Of a stretch of 64,000 nt of DNA, positions 55,287 through 64,000 are shown piece after piece. The stretch is taken from positions 248,001 to 312,000 of the forward strand of contig MPOA01000006.1 of the NCBI GenBank assembly GCA_001899445.1, given 5' to 3'. Within the stretch, counting starts at the first letter, position 1. Each line of letters begins with the position of its first letter. The notes below the pieces were generated by a model. The model was not told the origin of the DNA. It worked only from the letters and a program-made list of their open reading frames with translations, and ran no database searches. The DNA comes from Candidatus Desulfopertinax cowenii (GTDB taxonomy: Bacteria > Bacillota > Desulfotomaculia > Desulfotomaculales > Desulforudaceae). The position numbers and the translations under genes are program-made.

Positions 55287-56312
55287 CTAGCAGATACGCG
55301 GTAGGGGAGCGCCGGCCAGCAGATCCAGGTACTTGGTCCCTCCGAGCGCCGTTTTCAGGAACACGTTACCCCCGCCGGCCTTAACCTCGCCGATAATCCG
55401 GGCCTCCCGGCCCAGTTCATCTGCGCGCAAAAGCGTCAGGGCCTTTTCGACCTCCGTGGGCGCAACCACCGCCAGGAATTTCCCTTCGTTCGCCAAGTAC
55501 AGCGGGTCCACGCCCAGCATCTCGGCCGCGCCCTGGACAGCCAGTCCGATCGGGATCTCGGACTCGGACAACCAGATGTCCATCCCGGCGGAAACGGCGA
55601 TTTCCTTGGCCGAGGTGGCCAGCCCACCCCGCGTCAGGTCGCGCATCAACCGGACGCCGCGGCCGAGTTCGTCGAGCAGCCGACCCGTAATCCGGTGCAG
55701 TGCCACGCAGTCGCTGACCACCTGGTCCGCGAAACCGAAACCCTCCCGCGCGGCCAGCACGGCCATGCCGTGGTCGCCCATGTTCCCGTTAACGAGGATC
55801 AGGTCCCCGGGCGCCAGGCGGTGGTAGCCCAGGTCCACGTCGGGCCGGATCAGGCCCACGCCGGTGGTGTTGATGAAGATCTTGTCCAGGTGGCCCCGGC
55901 CCACCACCTTGGTGTCACCGGCCACGACCTGTACCCCGGCCTCCTGGCAGGCTTGGGCCATCGAGGCCACCACCCGGTCCAGATCGGCCAGCGGAAAACC
56001 CTCCTCGATCAAGAAGGCCACCGTAAGGTAGCGGGGTTCGGCCCCGCTCACCGCCAGGTCGTTCACGGTGCCGCAAACGGCCAGCTTGCCGATATCGCCG
56101 CCCGGGAAAAAGGGCGGGTCGATCACGAAGGAATCGGTGGTCACCGCCATCCGGCCCTCCCCGACCGGAAACGCGGCCGCGTCGGTCAACTCCCGGAGCA
56201 GCCGATTTTCAAAGTGGCGCAGGAACAGGCCGGTGACGAGTTCGTGGGTCAGCCGCCCCCCGTCGCCGTGCGCCAGCAGGATTACATCTTCACTCTTATT
56301 GCCCGTCGGCAC
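55287..56312 (-). CDS. hypE: hydrogenase maturation factor HypE (carbamoyl dehydratase)
   Basis: 341 residues. It dehydrates the thiocarbamate on its own C-terminal Cys to thiocyanate, the source of the cyanide ligands of the NiFe site. The C-terminus ends PLPRIC, the conserved PRIC tail. The PurM-like ATP-binding segments LLAHGDGGRLTHELV, MAVTTDSFVIDPPFFPGG and VVAGDTKVVGRGHLDK are present. GTG start at 56312 behind AGAGGGGG. It is separated from hypD by 254 nt holding no gene. Confidence 0.96.
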   Translation of the reverse strand: MPTGNKSEDVILLAHGDGGRLTHELVTGLFLRHFENRLLRELTDAAAFPVGEGRMAVTTDSFVIDPPFFPGGDIGKLAVCGTVNDLAVSGAEPRYLTVAFLIEEGFPLADLDRVVASMAQACQEAGVQVVAGDTKVVGRGHLDKIFINTTGVGLIRPDVDLGYHRLAPGDLILVNGNMGDHGMAVLAAREGFGFADQVVSDCVALHRITGRLLDELGRGVRLMRDLTRGGLATSAKEIAVSAGMDIWLSESEIPIGLAVQGAAEMLGVDPLYLANEGKFLAVVAPTEVEKALTLLRADELGREARIIGEVKAGGGNVFLKTALGGTKYLDLLAGAPLPRIC

Positions 56313-56566: not shown

Positions 56567-57679
56567 CTAAGAACTTCTCCGTTCGTACTGGTAGAAGGCA
56601 GCGCACGCGCCTTCGGTCGAAACCATGCACGGACCCACCGGGTGGGTGGGCGTGCAGGCGGTGGCAAACAGCTTGCACTCCCGCGGGGTGAGCTTGCCCT
56701 TCAGGAGATCCCCGCAGCGGCAGCCCTTAGGGATCCGCGGCTCGGCTACCTCGGGCGCAAAACGGACCCGGGCATCGAAATCGCGGTATTCCGGTTTCCA
56801 CTGCAGCCCGCTGCCCGGAATCACCCCGAAGCCCCGCCACGAAACGTCGGTGATTTCAAAAAACTGGTCCAGCAGGGCCTGCGCCCGGAGGTTGCCCGCC
56901 TCCTTCACTACCCGGGTGTACCCGTTCTCCACCCGGGCCTCCCCGGCCAGCACCTGCCGCAGCAGGTTGTACAGCGCATCTAGGATATCCAGCGTTTCAA
57001 AGCCACTGATCACCGACGGCAACCCGTATTCTTCAGCGATAAAGTCGTAAGCCCGCCGCCCAATAATCGCCGAGACGTGACCCGGCAGGATGAACCCGTC
57101 CAGCCGAAGTTCCGGATCGACGAGTAGGGCGTGCAGCGCCGGGGGCACGACCTTGTTGGCCAAAAACACGCTGTAGTTCTTCAGTCCCAGCGCCCGGGCC
57201 TGGGCCACGCTTAGAGCGATAGCCGGCGCCGTGGTCTCGAAACCGACACCCAGGAAGACCATTTCCCGGTCCGGGTTGGCTTCGGCCCACTTCACGGCGT
57301 CGGCCGGGGAGTAAAACACCCTGATGTCCGCCCCCCGGGCCTTTTCCTGTTCCAGCGAAGTCTGGCTGCCGGGTACCCGGACCATGTCACCGAAGGTGCC
57401 CACCGTCACTCCGGGCAGGCGCCCAAAGGCTACCATGGCATCGATATCCCCGTAGTCGGTCACGCAGACCGGGCAGCCCGGACCGCTGCGCAGTTCCAGT
57501 TTCCCGTCCAAGAGACTCCGCAGGCCCGCCTTGGAGATGGCCACCGTGTGGGTACCACAGACCTCCATGAACACCACCCGGCGCCCCAGCTTCTCCTGCG
57601 CCTGTTCCGCCAGCGCCGACACCCGCGCCAGCAGGGCCCGGCCGGTCTCCGGGTCACGAAACCTGTCCAGGATTTGCAT
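56567..57679 (-). CDS. hypD: hydrogenase maturation factor HypD
   Basis: 370-residue [4Fe-4S] scaffold on which, with HypC, the Fe(CN)2CO unit is assembled. Conserved cysteine motifs: FMEVCGTHTVAISKAG, SGPGCPVCVTDYGDID, and the cluster motif GCRCGDLLKGKLTPRECKLF near the C-terminus. VVFLGVGFETTAPAIA-type segment present. Overlaps hypC by 26 nt. Confidence 0.96.
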   Translation of the reverse strand: MQILDRFRDPETGRALLARVSALAEQAQEKLGRRVVFMEVCGTHTVAISKAGLRSLLDGKLELRSGPGCPVCVTDYGDIDAMVAFGRLPGVTVGTFGDMVRVPGSQTSLEQEKARGADIRVFYSPADAVKWAEANPDREMVFLGVGFETTAPAIALSVAQARALGLKNYSVFLANKVVPPALHALLVDPELRLDGFILPGHVSAIIGRRAYDFIAEEYGLPSVISGFETLDILDALYNLLRQVLAGEARVENGYTRVVKEAGNLRAQALLDQFFEITDVSWRGFGVIPGSGLQWKPEYRDFDARVRFAPEVAEPRIPKGCRCGDLLKGKLTPRECKLFATACTPTHPVGPCMVSTEGACAAFYQYERRSS

Positions 57680-57896
57680 CTTTCAAAATCTCCTCCCACA
57701 GCTTGAGCCGGATCTTGGCCTCTTCCACGTCGAGCTTCTCGATGGCGTAGCCGGTGTGCACGATCAGGTACTCGCCGGTCTGCACCTCACCCACCAGGAA
57801 GGTACTGACCTCCCGCTGCACCCCGAAAATCTCGATCACGGCGCTGTCGTTCTCAGGTTTCACTTCCACCACGAGACCCGGAATCCCTAAACACAT
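57654..57896 (-). CDS. hypC: hydrogenase maturation chaperone HypC
   Basis: 80 residues. The start is ATG at 57896 so that the essential Cys is residue 2 (MCLGIPGLVVEV); the frame extends further upstream to 57938. VQTGEYLIVHTGYAIEKLD is the second family motif. HypC carries the iron-cyanide unit from HypD to the large subunit. It overlaps hypF by 10 nt and hypD by 26 nt. Confidence 0.96.
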   Translation of the reverse strand: MCLGIPGLVVEVKPENDSAVIEIFGVQREVSTFLVGEVQTGEYLIVHTGYAIEKLDVEEAKIRLKLWEEILKDANPGQVS

Positions 57897-60187
57897 TGCT
57901 TCCACCTCCGGTACGCTATCACGGCCTGTCCCAGGCACAGGCCCCCGTCGTTGGCCGGCACCTGTCTATGGACCAAAACCCGAAACCCGTCTTCGGGCAG
58001 AGTCTCCCGCGCGCGCCGGAAAAGGTAACGGTTCTGCCAGGTGCCGCCGCTTAAGGCCACGGTTTTCAGCCCCGTGGCCATCCCCACCCGACGCACCGCC
58101 TCTCGCACCATCTCTAGGACGGTGTTGTGGAAACGGGTGGCGATGTGCGCGGCATCCATACCCCGCTCCAGGTCCTTCACCACCCCAGCGATAATGCCGG
58201 CCGCCGAGATCACTCTATCTTTAATTGAATAGGGATAGGGTGGCAGTTCCTGGCCCCGGCCGCCGTCCAGGACTAGTTCACCCAGTTCAATGGCCGCCTG
58301 CCCCTCGTAAGTGCTGCGCGTGCATACGCCGGTCAGTGCGGCCACCGCGTCGAACAGCCGGCCACAGCCGGCGCTTAACGGGGCGTTGAATCCCCGCCTG
58401 ACCATCTGGCACACAATGTCCAGTTCCCGGCCCCGCACACCCAAGAACTGCCCGGCCACCCGTTCGCCCTCCGCACCCAGGTAAGTCAACAGGTAGGCGA
58501 CCGCCGTCCGCCAGGGCTGGCGTACCGCTACCTCACCCCCCGGTAGGGGCACGGGCGCCAGGTGGATCTCCCGCGTGAAATCCAGATAATCCCCGGTGAG
58601 CACCTCGAACCCCCACAGGGTACCGTCCGGGCCGTACCCGGTGCCGTCCAGGATCACCCCGATCGCCCGCTCCTCCAGGCCGTTGTCCGCCAGGCAGGAC
58701 GCCAGGTGGGCGTGGTGATGCTGCACCGCGAACCGGGCCCGCGCCGGCACCTTTTCGGCCAGGCGAGACGAACGGTATTCCGGATGCATGTCGTAACCGA
58801 CGATCTCGGCTTCAATGTCCAGCAGCCGCTGGAAGTTCAGCAGGCTGGAAAGCAGGTTCTCTTCGCCCTCAATGCTGTCGAGCTCGCCGATGTGCTGGCT
58901 CACGAAAGCCCGTCCCTTTTTGAGAAGGCAGAAGGTATTCTTCATTTCGCCGCCGATCCCCAGCACTACCGGCCCGTCCCCGGTGGGAACTGGCACCGGG
59001 GACGGCACGTAGCCCCGCGAGCGACGCAGCAATTGCACTTCCCCGCCCATCACCATCGCCAGTGAGTCGTCACAACGGTTGACGATCTCCCGGTTGTGCC
59101 GGAGAAAATAGTCGGCGATTCCGCCCAATTCCTCCAAGGCCCGGTCGTTGTCCTTGGCCAGGGGTAGTTCGCTGTAGTTCCCGCTGGTCATGACCAGAAG
59201 GTCAAACGACCCGCCGAACAGCAGGAAATGAAGCGGGGTGTACGGCAACATGACCCCCAGGGTCTTCAGTCCCGGGGCCAGCTCACGCGGCAGCCTGACC
59301 TCTGGCCGACGTCGCAGCACCACGATCGGCGCCTGCGGGGAAGTCAATAGTTCACGTTCCACCTGGTCCAGGTGGCAATAGCGCGCCACCGTCTCCAGGT
59401 TCCGGGCCATCACCGCGAACGGCTTGGCGTCGCGGCCCTTGCGCCGGCGCAACTCCCGCAGCGCCTTGGGATTCTTCGCGTCGCAAACCAGGTGAAAACC
59501 ACCCAGGCTCTTCAACGCCAGGATTTTCCCCTGCGCCAGTAAATCCCAGCAGACTTGCGTCCACTCCCCCGGCACCGGCCGGCCCCGGCCGTCCACCAGT
59601 TCCACCGCCGGGCCACAGGCCGGGCAGGCCACCGGCTGGGCGTGGAACCGCCGGTCGGTCGGATCGTGGTACTCCCGAGCGCAAGCCCTGCACATGGGAA
59701 AGGCGGCCATCGAGGTCTTGGGCCGATCGTAGGGCAGTTCCCGAACGATGGTGAACCGCGGCCCGCAGTTGGTGCAGTTGGTAAACGGGTAGCGGTAGTG
59801 CCGATCGGCCGGATCGAAGGTCTCCCGGGCACAAGCCCTGCACAACCCCACGTCCGGAGGCACCAGGGCTTCGACCTCCTCGCCGCCCTGGCTCGCGATA
59901 ATCTCAAAACCGGTATAACCCACCGGGGGCAGGGACTCCCAGGTCACTTCTTCCACCCGGGCCAGCCGCGGCGGCCTCCCCCGCACTTCTTCCAGGAAAC
60001 CGTGTACGGCCACCGCCGACCCCTCGGCATCCACGATCACCCCCCGGCCCGCGTTCAGCACGCTGCCGCGGATACCGTGGGACCGAGCCAGATTATAAAT
60101 GAAGGGGCGGAAACCGACGCCCTGGACGGTGCCCCGGACCGTTATCCGGTAGCGGACCGCTTTTTCCGCACGATCTCCCTGAGCCAT
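57887..60187 (-). CDS. hypF: hydrogenase maturation carbamoyltransferase HypF
   Basis: About 766 residues; makes carbamoyl-AMP from carbamoyl phosphate and passes it to HypE. Domains: acylphosphatase (about 10-100, TVRGTVQGVGFRPFIYNLA), two zinc-finger repeats (CRACARETFDPADRHYRYP; CRACAREYHDPTDRRFH), YrdC-like (about 205-390) and Kae1-like (about 400-765, HHHAHLASCLADNGLEERA; ALSGGTWQNRYLF). ATG at 60187 has GAGGGG 9 nt upstream; GTG at 60196 would overlap that site. It overlaps hypB. Confidence 0.96.
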   Translation of the reverse strand: MAQGDRAEKAVRYRITVRGTVQGVGFRPFIYNLARSHGIRGSVLNAGRGVIVDAEGSAVAVHGFLEEVRGRPPRLARVEEVTWESLPPVGYTGFEIIASQGGEEVEALVPPDVGLCRACARETFDPADRHYRYPFTNCTNCGPRFTIVRELPYDRPKTSMAAFPMCRACAREYHDPTDRRFHAQPVACPACGPAVELVDGRGRPVPGEWTQVCWDLLAQGKILALKSLGGFHLVCDAKNPKALRELRRRKGRDAKPFAVMARNLETVARYCHLDQVERELLTSPQAPIVVLRRRPEVRLPRELAPGLKTLGVMLPYTPLHFLLFGGSFDLLVMTSGNYSELPLAKDNDRALEELGGIADYFLRHNREIVNRCDDSLAMVMGGEVQLLRRSRGYVPSPVPVPTGDGPVVLGIGGEMKNTFCLLKKGRAFVSQHIGELDSIEGEENLLSSLLNFQRLLDIEAEIVGYDMHPEYRSSRLAEKVPARARFAVQHHHAHLASCLADNGLEERAIGVILDGTGYGPDGTLWGFEVLTGDYLDFTREIHLAPVPLPGGEVAVRQPWRTAVAYLLTYLGAEGERVAGQFLGVRGRELDIVCQMVRRGFNAPLSAGCGRLFDAVAALTGVCTRSTYEGQAAIELGELVLDGGRGQELPPYPYSIKDRVISAAGIIAGVVKDLERGMDAAHIATRFHNTVLEMVREAVRRVGMATGLKTVALSGGTWQNRYLFRRARETLPEDGFRVLVHRQVPANDGGLCLGQAVIAYRRWKQCV

Positions 60188-60801
60188 GCGTACCACCCCT
60201 CTGTCCCCTCGCCGGTGGCGGCCGAAGTCACGAAAATAAGGATGTCCGGATTGATCGTCCGGATCTCCTCCTGCACCTTATTTATATCAAAATCGGTATA
60301 CGCAAGCAAATCGCTCTTGTTAATCACCACCGCCTGGGACTCCCGGAACACCAGCGGGTACTTAACCGGCTTGTCGCCCCCCTCGGCCACACTCAAAAGG
60401 GCGACTTTGTAGTCCTCGCCCAGGTCGAACTCCGCCGGGCAGACCAGGTTGCCGACGTTTTCGATGAACAGAAGGTCCAGACCGGCCAGATCCAACTGGT
60501 CGAGCGCCCGGCCCACCATGTTTGCGTCCAGGTGACAAAGCCCCGCGGTGTTTACCTGTACCACCGCGGCACCCTGGCCGGCGATCCGCTCGGCGTCGCG
60601 GGTGGTGTAAATGTCCCCCTCGATCACCCCGACGTTGACCTCACCCCGTAGGGCCTGGATCGTCCTCTCCAGCAAGGTGGTTTTCCCCGCTCCCGGGGAG
60701 CTGATCAGGTTGACGGTCGGGAGATGCTTAAGCCGTTCCCGATTTTCACGGGCCACCTGTTCGTTCGCCCGCAGAATCTTCTGGGCCATCACTACCTTCA
60801 C
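60142..60801 (-). CDS. hypB: hydrogenase nickel-incorporation GTPase HypB
   Basis: About 219 residues. P-loop NLISSPGAGKTTLLERTI, switch and metal region VIEGDIYTTRDAERI and AGLCHLDANMV, guanine-specificity motif VVINKSDLLAY. No His-rich N-terminal nickel store. GTG at 60801 is 6 nt after AAAGGAGG; ATG at 60807 lies directly against that site. It overlaps the hypA 3' end by about 55 nt. HypA and HypB load nickel after the iron unit is in place. Confidence 0.95.
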   Translation of the reverse strand: MKVVMAQKILRANEQVARENRERLKHLPTVNLISSPGAGKTTLLERTIQALRGEVNVGVIEGDIYTTRDAERIAGQGAAVVQVNTAGLCHLDANMVGRALDQLDLAGLDLLFIENVGNLVCPAEFDLGEDYKVALLSVAEGGDKPVKYPLVFRESQAVVINKSDLLAYTDFDINKVQEEIRTINPDILIFVTSAATGEGTEGWYAWLREIVRKKRSATG

Positions 60802-61156
60802 CGGCATCCTCCTTTCCATCGTCGCCTTCAAAGTAATCTATGTACAGCTCCTGCCCGGAAACGATTTCGGCGCGGCCGCCGCATTTCGGGCAGAAGTACG
60901 CCAGTTCCTCGCTCTCCGACTCCGCACCGCATTGCGGGCACCTCAAGGTGACGGGCACGGACTCGATCTCCAGCCGGGCACCCTCGAACATGGTTCCCGG
61001 GGCCAGGACAGAAAACGCAAACTCCAACGCGTCGGGAATCGCGCCGTTCAACCGGCCAACCACCAAACGCACCCTGGTTACCCGCTCAATGTTATTGGCC
61101 CCGGCCACGCGGGAGATTTCATTCATCACGGTTTGGATCAGTCCGACTTCGTGCAC
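60746..61156 (-). CDS. hypA: hydrogenase nickel-incorporation protein HypA
   Basis: 136 residues. GTG at 61156 makes the nickel-binding His residue 2 (VHEVGLIQTVMNEI), as in all HypA proteins; the frame extends upstream only by chance. The zinc site is CPQCGAESESEELAYFCPKC. The last 25 or so residues, after the canonical end near YIDYFEGDD, form an acidic low-complexity tail that overlaps the start of hypB. GGAGGGGG precedes the start. Cooperates with HypB. Confidence 0.94.
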   Translation of the reverse strand: MHEVGLIQTVMNEISRVAGANNIERVTRVRLVVGRLNGAIPDALEFAFSVLAPGTMFEGARLEIESVPVTLRCPQCGAESESEELAYFCPKCGGRAEIVSGQELYIDYFEGDDGKEDAGEGSDGPEDSAGERTGGP

Positions 61157-61644
61157 TCGCCCGCCCCCTCCAGCCAGCACCGCACTTCCCGGCGCACGGC
61201 CTCGACCGCCCGCGGGACAGCCCCGGACACTGCGGGGTCCAGACCCATGTGCCACGGTTCCACGTTGGCGACCGTAATCCCGATGATCACCACTTCGTCC
61301 GGTAAGCCCTCCGGCATGGACTTTCGCCCAAATTCCAAGGCGTCCCGGATCCCGATGTCGTGCACCGACAGTGGCGGCGCCTCCTTGCGGGGTACGTCCT
61401 CCTCCCGCCAGCGAAGCACCTGTCCGGGCGGTATTCCTTCCGCCAGCACGGCGTCGATGATCACCGCCTTGTCGCTCCCGAACATCAGGTCCAGCATCCC
61501 CAGCCCCGGGGCACCGGCTTCATACAGGGTCACTCCGGCCGGCAGCGGTTCTTTCTCCAGTTCCCGCAGCACCTCGATCCCAACGGCGTCATCGCCGGCA
61601 AAAATATTGCCGCATCCCAGGATCACGATCTTACAGTCAGCCAA
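61138..61644 (-). CDS. hydrogenase maturation endopeptidase (HyaD/HycI family)
   Basis: 168 residues. IVILGCGNIFAGDDAVGIEV holds the conserved GN..(A)GDD motif with the nickel-binding acid, VIIDAVLAEG the second Asp and LSVHDIGIRDALEF the His. These proteases remove the C-terminal tail of the large subunit once nickel is bound. The gene lies between the hydrogenase and hypA, so it most likely processes the large subunit encoded at 61841-63304, whose tail of 26 residues after DPCFSCATH is intact. TTG start at 61644. It overlaps hypA by 19 nt. Confidence 0.93.
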   Translation of the reverse strand: MADCKIVILGCGNIFAGDDAVGIEVLRELEKEPLPAGVTLYEAGAPGLGMLDLMFGSDKAVIIDAVLAEGIPPGQVLRWREEDVPRKEAPPLSVHDIGIRDALEFGRKSMPEGLPDEVVIIGITVANVEPWHMGLDPAVSGAVPRAVEAVRREVRCWLEGAGECTKSD

Positions 61645-61840: not shown

Positions 61841-63304
61841 TTACTCCCTGCTGAGGGTCTTCACTAGTTCGCCTTTGTGGTCGTAAATGTTGACCTTCAG
61901 CGGCAGTTCGCCCAGGATGGCGTGGGTCGCGCAGCTAAAGCACGGGTCGTAAGCCCGGAAGGCCATCTCTACCATGTTCAACACTCCGTTGGTGATTTCC
62001 ATCCCTGGTTTGATGACCGAGCTGGCCGCTTTCTTAATGGCCATGGAGATCGGGGCGTTGTTGTTGGTGGTGCCCACGATCAGGTTGGCCTTCACCACGA
62101 TGCCGTTGGCGTCGGTGGCGTAGTGGTGAGTCAGAGTACCGCGCGGCGCCTCCACGATGCCGACGCCTTCCTCCGGCGACCCGGTCGGGATGTTCCGGAT
62201 GTCCGGGCTGGTAACCTCCTCGTCCTGCGCCAGTTCCAGCAGACGCTCGGCCGCGTACATCAGCTCTACCAGCCGCGCCCAGTGGGTGGCCAGCACGGCA
62301 TGCACCGGACGACCGCCCAGAGTCGAGAAGAACTTCTCGTAAGCCTCCTGCGCCAGCGGGGTGGCCATGCCGTCGCAGGCGTTAATCCGACCCAGCGGGG
62401 CCGCCTGGTAGATCGCGGTACCCGGCCCCTCAGTGAAACCGGTCCAGCCAAACTTCTTCAGGTACGGGTATTTCAAGTAGCTGTAAGGCTCCACGTGCTC
62501 GGCCACGTAGTCCACGTATTCCCGCGGCGAGTACTTGAACAGTTCCTTGCCCTCGGTGTCCACCACGCGGACCTTGCCGTCGTAGAAATTAATCTTGTTG
62601 TTCTCGTCCACTAGGCCCATGTAGTTGGTGACCAGCTTGTAGGTGTCGCCCAGGATCAGTTCCACGTAGGCCTGGTTCTTCAACACCACGTCGTCGAACA
62701 GCTTCAGGGAGAACTTGGCGAACTCCACGCAGGACTTGGCCATCTCCTCGACCTGCTTGCGCTCCTCCCCGGTGAGTCCCTTGCTCACGCCGCCGGGAAG
62801 CGTCCAGGCCGGGTGGGTAGCCTTGCCGCCCAGCATCGCCTGAATCTGCTGCGCGTACGCCCGGTGCTTGATCACCTCGCCGCCGATCTCCAAGCCCACT
62901 TTCTCGATCACGCCCAAGACGTTACGGACGGCCGGGTCGGCGTCCGGGCCCAGCACGAAGTCCGGCGCCGCCAGGGCGTAAAAGTGGGCGATGTGGCTGT
63001 GCACAAAGTGCGCACTGTAAAATAGCTCCCGCAGCTTCTTTGCCGCCGGTGTCGGCTCCACACCGAACACCATGTCCATGGCCTTACCCGAGGCCAAATG
63101 GTGCGCGCTGGGTCAGACGCCACAGATGCGGCTTACAATCTGCGGGACTTCCTCAGCCGGACGGCCCTCGCAGAACTTCTCGAAACCACGTAGCTCCGGA
63201 ATCTGAAAGTAGCAGTTTTCAACGGCCCCCGAATCGTCCAGGAAGATCTCGATCCTCCCGTGACCCTCAAGCCTGGTGATGGGATCAATGGTAATCCTCT
63301 TCAC
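61841..63304 (-). CDS. NiFe(Se) hydrogenase large subunit (MvhA/group 3c-like) with in-frame TGA read as selenocysteine
   Basis: 487 residues if the TGA at 63113-63115 is translated. The N-terminus (KRITIDPITRLEGHGRIEIF; IPELRGFEKFCEGRPAEEV) is group 3c-like. The N-terminal nickel motif reads RICGV-TGA-PSAHH: Cys61 is present and codon 64, always Cys in ordinary enzymes, is TGA. The same frame continues unbroken to the C-terminal motif AYDPCFSCATH (Cys455, Cys458) and a 26-residue tail for the endopeptidase. A hairpin fitting a bacterial SECIS follows the TGA. A nonsense mutation or sequence error is the alternative. GTG start behind AAGGAGGG; the small-subunit stop abuts it. Confidence 0.85.
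63076..63101 (-). promoter_or_regulatory. candidate bacterial SECIS element
   Basis: In the mRNA, beginning 11 nt after the TGA: lower stem CCAT/ATGG, a TT bulge on the 5' side, upper stem GGCCT/AGGCC, and apical loop CGGGTA. The loop starts 22 nt after the TGA and has G at its second position. This fits the usual criteria for bacterial SECIS hairpins. Confidence 0.7.
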
Positions 63305-64000
63305 TTACTTTGCCCTCCTTAATAGCGACCCGGGCAGACCATAGCGGTAGAAAGTGCCCGCCGGATCGACTATCTCGCTGATTATCCGGTCGGCCTCTTC
63401 GGGGGTGTCGGCGTCCACGACCGAGGCCAGCGCCGAGATGTATTTGGCGCCCTGGTCGATCACGCCGTCAACTGGCCCGTAGCAGCCGCGGCACGGCAAG
63501 TTGGCGCTGGTGCACTGGTTGCCACAGCCGGCTCTGGTCACCGGGCCCATGCAGGTCAGGCCCTGCTCCAGGAGACACTTCTTGGGATCCACCATGATTT
63601 CGTGGGGCCGGTAGAATTTCTTGACCTTCTTCTCGGTCTTCTCCCGTTCACATTCGTCGCACATGGTCTTGTTGGAACAGCCGACGAACGCACCCTTGGG
63701 CGGCAGGTTACCGGAAGCGATGACCTGGATAACCGCCCAGACCTGGGTCGCCGTCGGCGGACAACCCGGCATAAAGTAGTCCACGTCCACGACGTCGGCC
63801 AAACACTTGACTTCTTTGTAGAATTCGGGGAGTTCCAGCTCACCCTCGAGCACCTGGTACCTGGTCACGGGGAAAACCCGCTCGGGGTTTTGGGTGGAAT
63901 CGCTCTGGATGTAAACCCGGTCCAGGATGTCGTCCCGGCGCTTGAAGTTGGCGAGCCCCGGAATACCGCCCGCAATCGCGCAGCTGCCGAAGGCCACCAG
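63305..64000 (-). CDS. NiFe hydrogenase small subunit (MvhG-like), partial (5' end outside window)
   Basis: About 231 residues are visible; the start lies beyond the right edge. VAFGSCAIAGGIPGLANF, DYFMPGCPPTATQVW and the later cysteines (CLLEQGLTCMGPVTRAGC; CTSANLPCRGCYGPVDG) supply [4Fe-4S] ligands as in F420-non-reducing (Mvh/group 3c-type) small subunits. It transfers electrons from the NiFe site towards a partner, in Mvh systems MvhD and heterodisulfide-reductase-like proteins, which would be expected just outside this window. Its stop abuts the large-subunit start. Confidence 0.93.
   Translation of the reverse strand: MVAFGSCAIAGGIPGLANFKRRDDILDRVYIQSDSTQNPERVFPVTRYQVLEGELELPEFYKEVKCLADVVDVDYFMPGCPPTATQVWAVIQVIASGNLPPKGAFVGCSNKTMCDECEREKTEKKVKKFYRPHEIMVDPKKCLLEQGLTCMGPVTRAGCGNQCTSANLPCRGCYGPVDGVIDQGAKYISALASVVDADTPEEADRIISEIVDPAGTFYRYGLPGSLLRRAK

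Follow-up and report, generated by a model that had tools for sequence, protein, structure and literature searches.

The gene at positions 61841-63304 (minus strand) of the window, meaning the whole 64,000-nucleotide stretch of DNA analysed, is a selenoprotein gene by every available sequence test. In this large subunit of a cytoplasmic MvhDGA-type hydrogenase, selenocysteine (Sec) very probably takes the place of the second Cys in the N-terminal nickel motif, being decoded by SelB and a SECIS element and predicted to bridge Ni and Fe. The assignment is made in the absence of peptide, 75Se or structural data. Sec is thus predicted at a metal-binding position where only Cys was expected, and in two hydrogenases of one genome.

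The large subunit gene and its neighbours

The frame of the large subunit runs from 63304 to 61841, opens with a GTG start that is preceded by a good ribosome binding site (AAGGAGGG), comprises 487 residues and closes with a TAA stop. The earlier note had described a frame broken only by the TGA at the second N-terminal Cys, followed by a normal large subunit with intact DPCFSCATH; re-reading of the minus strand agrees, and the rest of the gene is free of decay. The features of the locus are as follows.

61841-63304, minus strand: mvhA-type [NiFe]-hydrogenase large subunit, 487 aa, Pfam NiFeSe_Hases
63113-63115, minus strand: single in-frame TGA, predicted Sec64, at the second Cys codon of the N-terminal RxCGxC
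63113-63130, minus strand: N-terminal nickel motif RICGVU, with Sec in place of the second Cys of RxCGxC
61922-61948, minus strand: C-terminal nickel motif DPCFSCATH, Cys/Cys unaltered
63305-64000, minus strand: mvhG-type small subunit, Oxidored_q6, cut by the window end and complete at L097:3305-4309
C6:312263-312826 (L097:4263-4826), just past the window end and beyond mvhG: mvhD with an in-frame TGA, motif AGUHPGDCHY
61138-61644, minus strand: HycI-type hydrogenase maturation protease
60746-61255, minus strand: hypA, the real start probably lying further in
60142-60831, minus strand: hypB, CobW/HypB/UreG domain
57887-60196, minus strand: hypF
57654-57938, minus strand: hypC
56567-57679, minus strand: hypD
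55287-56312, minus strand: hypE, AIR synthase related

Upstream of the large subunit lie mvhD and mvhG, which adjoin it as membership in the MvhA-type group 3 requires, and downstream follow the gene for the HycI-type protease and then hypA, B, F, C, D and E. The group labels used here (group 1, group 3) are taken from the nearest structures and the neighbouring genes, not from HydDB. The nearest solved structure to the window protein is 5odc, subunit A of the methyl-viologen reducing hydrogenase (E 4.9e-119). Against the VhuA equivalog model NF041785 the protein scores 428 bits, below the curated cut-off of 800, and it is therefore considered an MvhA-type relative only, not the methanogen VhuA equivalog. 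The score against the curated HysA model NF045518, 171 bits, is likewise below the cut-off (780 bits), and the window protein lacks the Sec with which the C-terminal CxxC of HysA begins, the motif reading DPCFSC instead. A C-terminal extension is present beyond DPCFSCATH and, together with HycI, is consistent with normal maturation, although this is an inference. Several HdrA-like genes occur in the genome, one of which (C2:231233-233203) adjoins another mvhD-like gene that contains one TGA (C2:233212-233616).

Ligand positions in two hydrogenases of one genome

All four Ni-ligand positions of RxCGxC and DPCxxC are present in the window protein, with Sec standing for the second N-terminal Cys. 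The corresponding ligands in Desulfovibrio gigas are Cys65, Cys68, Cys530 and Cys533, and in each pair it is the second Cys that forms the bridge between Ni and Fe. Position Cys530 is the one taken by the classical Sec (PMC7324405). In the alignment with the solved Mvh and HysA enzymes, Sec64 falls on their second N-terminal Cys, all four ligands being in register, and this alignment, taken with the established structure, leads to the prediction of a bridging selenolate at Sec64. The placement of Sec at the Ni-Fe bridging position, as proposed in the earlier note, is thus supported, as a prediction, through homology to solved enzymes.

A protein search of the genome revealed two further large subunits besides the window gene. 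One of them is of the Cys/Cys form; the other, P0002, carries the same substitution as the window gene.

C1:197820-199208 (L101:1440-2898), minus strand: group 1 large subunit P0002, TGA at the same codon, RICGVUPISH

P0002 shares 29% identity with the window protein, and its C-terminal DPCIAC is intact. Among solved structures it is closest to the periplasmic [NiFeSe] hydrogenases (5jsu, HysA), and the small subunit encoded by the adjoining gene has, as judged by eye, a Tat-type N-terminus. Its score against the curated HysA model NF045518 is 614 bits, below the cut-off of 780 bits, and the HysA-type C-terminal Sec is absent from P0002, which has DPCIAC and its Sec codon in the N-terminal motif. 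The group 1 case extends the earlier observation, which covered only the window gene.

Within the order, group 1 genes exist in three states: some have Cys in both motifs (Cys/Cys), some have Sec in the N-terminal motif and Cys in the C-terminal one, and others show the reverse arrangement, with the classical C-terminal Sec; the combination of N-terminal and C-terminal Sec was found in none of the 29 group 1 genes compared. On the tree, a branch with bootstrap 91 sets off the N-terminal-Sec genes, which lie apart from the C-terminal-Sec clade. Four genes from a sister family within this order (L160, L161, L164 and L165) carry the classical C-terminal Sec, as DPUIGC or DPULGC, with an N-terminal Cys.

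It is conceivable that Sec64 is inserted and that the mature site is nevertheless rearranged, such that Sec serves as a terminal Ni ligand or is displaced by another ligand, without forming a Ni-Fe bridge. Shifts of this kind are known, since a terminal Cys of the O2-tolerant Hydrogenophilus enzyme becomes bridging upon oxidation, according to PMC10214449. Of the alternatives this one survives best, yet it remains unlikely, inasmuch as the ligands at all four positions are conserved and line up with those of solved enzymes and the same Sec position recurs in two distant hydrogenase groups.

Decoding and distribution of the TGA codon

The preferred reading, in which Sec is inserted at the TGA and bridges the two metals, presupposes a decoding signal, and a candidate lies directly downstream.

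63079-63096, minus strand: bacterial-type SECIS hairpin UGGCCU-CGGGUA-AGGCCA, 16 nt past the TGA, its loop beginning 22 nt past the TGA

The stem consists of six pairs, with G at the second loop position, and the distance and shape of the hairpin fit those of bacterial SECIS elements. All six pairs are formed in 29/29 distinct TGA genes versus 11/62 Cys genes (Fisher p 5e-15); the p-values ignore the kinship of the sequences and hence overstate their independence. The synonymous positions of codons 71-75 (GCC TCG GGT AAG GCC) are nearly frozen in the TGA genes, where, out of 260 conserved codons, the six that vary least include all five hairpin codons, and the two Ala codons of the hairpin have an entropy of about 1.9 bits in the Cys genes. 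In a TGA gene of KSB1 (L058), a compensatory double change converts a C-G pair into U-A. Two close Cys orthologues (L186 and L187, 72-74% identity) have lost the hairpin. A Krumholzibacteriota gene (L028) has TGC at the Sec codon and a hairpin that is identical letter for letter, the fossil of a recent Sec-to-Cys change. No SECIS match was obtained in an Rfam search of the window and of the locus, and the folding energy of the 50-80 nt past the TGA is not clearly exceptional compared to dinucleotide or synonymous shuffling; the case for a SECIS element therefore rests on conservation.

The TGA genes of group 1 possess a distinct hairpin, GGCAUC-AGUUC-GGUGCU, which is invariant in all ten of them (10/10) and is formed in 3/20 relatives without the N-terminal TGA, the latter being a pattern count that may cover TGC/TGT genes only. 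Seven successive codons are frozen in these genes, including a Leu codon, CTA.

The loop codon of the group 3 hairpin differs among lineages. Five Chloroflexota TGA forms (L027, L034, L038, L134 and L136) have Cys (TGC/TGT) at this codon, other TGA forms have Gly, and Cys-form relatives have Thr or Ala. It may be the RNA loop that dictates the protein residue at this codon in the Chloroflexota.

The genome (G000, completeness 99.96%) contains adjacent selA and selB genes in an operon, a tRNA-Sec (selC) with a UCA anticodon, and selD at C1:148504-149424 (L103), whose own frame holds one TGA. TGA also serves as an ordinary stop in this genome, ending 11/44 long frames of the window. Among relatives, SelB exceeds the curated cut-off in 13/15 TGA-bearing genomes versus 21/35 Cys genomes (p about 0.1), so that its presence separates the two only as a trend and not significantly. 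Clear SelB was not found in two of the TGA-bearing genomes, G118, which is a small MAG, and G119. The latter is a MAG deposited as a chromosome (CP070645.1) and bears the TGA hydrogenase L027, but has no SelB above the cut-off.

Reading of the UGA as Cys or Trp, through suppression or reassignment, would be in keeping with the Cys that relatives have at residue 64, and UGA is generally known to admit near-cognate insertion. Such a reading is very improbable in a genome that has a complete Sec system and in which UGA still serves as a stop elsewhere; moreover, the hairpin has the form and placement of a SECIS element and is conserved in the TGA genes. Insertion of Sec is thus retained as the preferred reading.

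The distribution of the codon bears on the same question. The same codon is TGA in 15 of the 80 nearest relatives of the window gene, as read from genome contigs, the remainder having Cys. The bearers span at least seven phyla, namely Bacillota, Chloroflexota, Krumholzibacteriota, Latescibacterota, Acidobacteriota, KSB1 and UBP1, whereby the data outside the Bacillota stem mostly from MAGs. Those in the Bacillota belong to Desulforudis, Desulfotruncus, Desulfoscipio and a Moorellales MAG, and include the isolates Desulfotruncus alcoholivorax DSM 16058 and Desulfoscipio geothermicus DSM 3669. Since independent assemblies, including those of isolates, have the same TGA, sequencing error is excluded. 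Within the order, 17 of the 19 closest orthologues have TGA and 2 have Cys, and each of the 8 genomes of the family has two RICGVU sites, one in group 3 and one in group 1. A pattern search for RICGVU-Pro in 113 genomes of the class returned 27 sites, which are spread over 17 genomes and lie without exception in hydrogenase large subunits (17 of group 3 and 10 of group 1), and the reversed control pattern returned zero sites in the 113 genomes; thus, the RICGVU TGA is not a product of chance. The trait is rare in the Chloroflexota, as TGA occurs in 3 of a sample of 400 genomes. On a protein tree with the codon masked, the TGA and Cys states require 6 changes, at least 4 of which are forced by well-supported branches, which implies several gains or losses of the trait, or its transfer between lineages.

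The least tenable alternative, that the TGA is a true stop, whether in a pseudogene, through a sequencing error or because the downstream 418-codon ORF is translated alone from an internal TTG, can draw on the mechanical ORF that begins at TTG 63097, right after the TGA, and on the genes here that stop normally at TGA, yet it has almost nothing left to stand on, given the same TGA in independent assemblies, isolates and several phyla, the strong conservation of the protein downstream, the SECIS hairpin conserved together with the TGA, and the lack of the N-terminal nickel motif in any product begun after it. A pseudogene or an assembly error was rejected on the basis of the conservation across independent assemblies.

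The prediction of Sec at residue 64 would have been refuted, according to the earlier note, by the absence of selB or selC, by orthologues with only Cys and no conserved hairpin, by resequencing that yields TGC or TGT, or by decay in other parts of the gene. None of these applies: selA, selB, selC and selD are all found in the genome, related genomes hold both the TGA and the Cys form, the hairpin is conserved, as a rule only in TGA forms, and independent assemblies show TGA. The prediction thus stands on the machinery, the TGA-bearing orthologues and the conserved hairpin.

Proposed mechanism and relation to known hydrogenases

In the mechanism proposed here, SelB and Sec-tRNA(Sec) would decode the UGA, aided by the SECIS hairpin 16 nt downstream. 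The chain would then run on through the intact C-terminal DPCxxC. The HycI-type protease encoded next to it would process the chain, and the neighbouring Hyp proteins would supply the Ni-Fe(CN)2CO site, both steps being inferred from gene content. The mature site is inferred to hold one bridging selenolate and three thiolates, and the group 1 enzyme would have the same substitution. Electrons would pass via MvhG and MvhD, probably on to an HdrA. In ordinary enzymes, S-oxygenation of the bridging ligand is tied to slow inactivation. The likeliest benefit of the substitution, which is put forward as a hypothesis, would be a bridging ligand that is easier to re-reduce after oxidation, or altered Ni-Fe electronics, in strict anaerobes. 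Any change in O2 tolerance, redox behaviour or catalysis resulting from Sec64 is an inference for which there is no biochemical evidence.

Natural hydrogenases appear to have placed Se at more than one spot of the Ni-Fe site. It is likely, with less assurance than for the window gene itself, that the genes described here constitute a second natural class of Se-containing [NiFe]-hydrogenases, distributed over groups 3 and 1 and several phyla, in which Sec forms the N-terminal Ni-Fe bridge and, in group 1 of this order, is an alternative to the C-terminal Sec. The known [NiFeSe] enzymes hold Se as a terminal Ni ligand, and arguments about what Se contributes to O2 recovery and H2 production have relied on that geometry alone. 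A natural bridging selenolate, if true, would be an independent evolutionary experiment in two distant hydrogenase groups. Close relatives of the Cys/Cys and C-terminal-Sec forms would be ready controls, and the comparison would test which of the ligands is important for oxidative inactivation, proton transfer and catalytic bias. Gene callers that halt at TGA will have left such hydrogenases truncated or lost in deep-subsurface and in sulfate-reducing lineages.

A literature search, to which subscription papers were out of reach, found no description of a RICGVU-type motif or of Sec at the bridging position, and priority for an N-terminal bridging Sec in natural hydrogenases cannot be claimed. 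Two reviews of prokaryotic selenoproteomes, from 2022 (PMC9312934) and 2026 (PMC13188914), present hydrogenase alpha subunits only with a C-terminal UxxC. Sec-containing FrhA has been described in Deltaproteobacteria (Syntrophobacter, Desulfotalea), in operons that cluster with archaeal ones, although the Sec position is not readable in the text of that source (PMC1794560); for this family the later reviews state UxxC.

Among the known systems, MvhA/VhuA of the F420-non-reducing MvhAGD hydrogenase (group 3c; 5odc) resembles the window protein in full-length homology, in its MvhG and MvhD neighbours and in the RxCG and DPCxxC motifs; the solved Mvh, however, has Cys at the second N-terminal position, where the window protein has Sec. 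VhuU, the known Sec form of the Mvh/Vhu family, is unlike the window protein in carrying its Sec in a C-terminal UxxC. The classical HysA of Desulfovibrio (5jsu, 1cc1) shares with the window enzyme both Sec at a Ni ligand and UGA decoding, yet its Sec is the first residue of the C-terminal CxxC and a terminal Ni ligand, whereas that of the window enzyme is N-terminal and predicted to be bridging, with Cys/Cys at the C-terminus. MvhD/FrhD with Sec is a known selenoprotein family. Sec-containing MvhD/FrhD belongs to the same operon and also relies on UGA decoding, but it is an iron-sulfur subunit and has already been described. A parallel in ligand position is an engineered one: Evans et al. in 2021 reportedly replaced each of the four Ni cysteines of E. 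coli Hyd-1 with Sec, including that at the bridging N-terminal position. These Sec swaps of all four Ni cysteines are cited in PMC11212049 (its ref 57). The engineered Hyd-1 variants are artificial, whereas the window-type variants are natural and come with a predicted SECIS element of their own.
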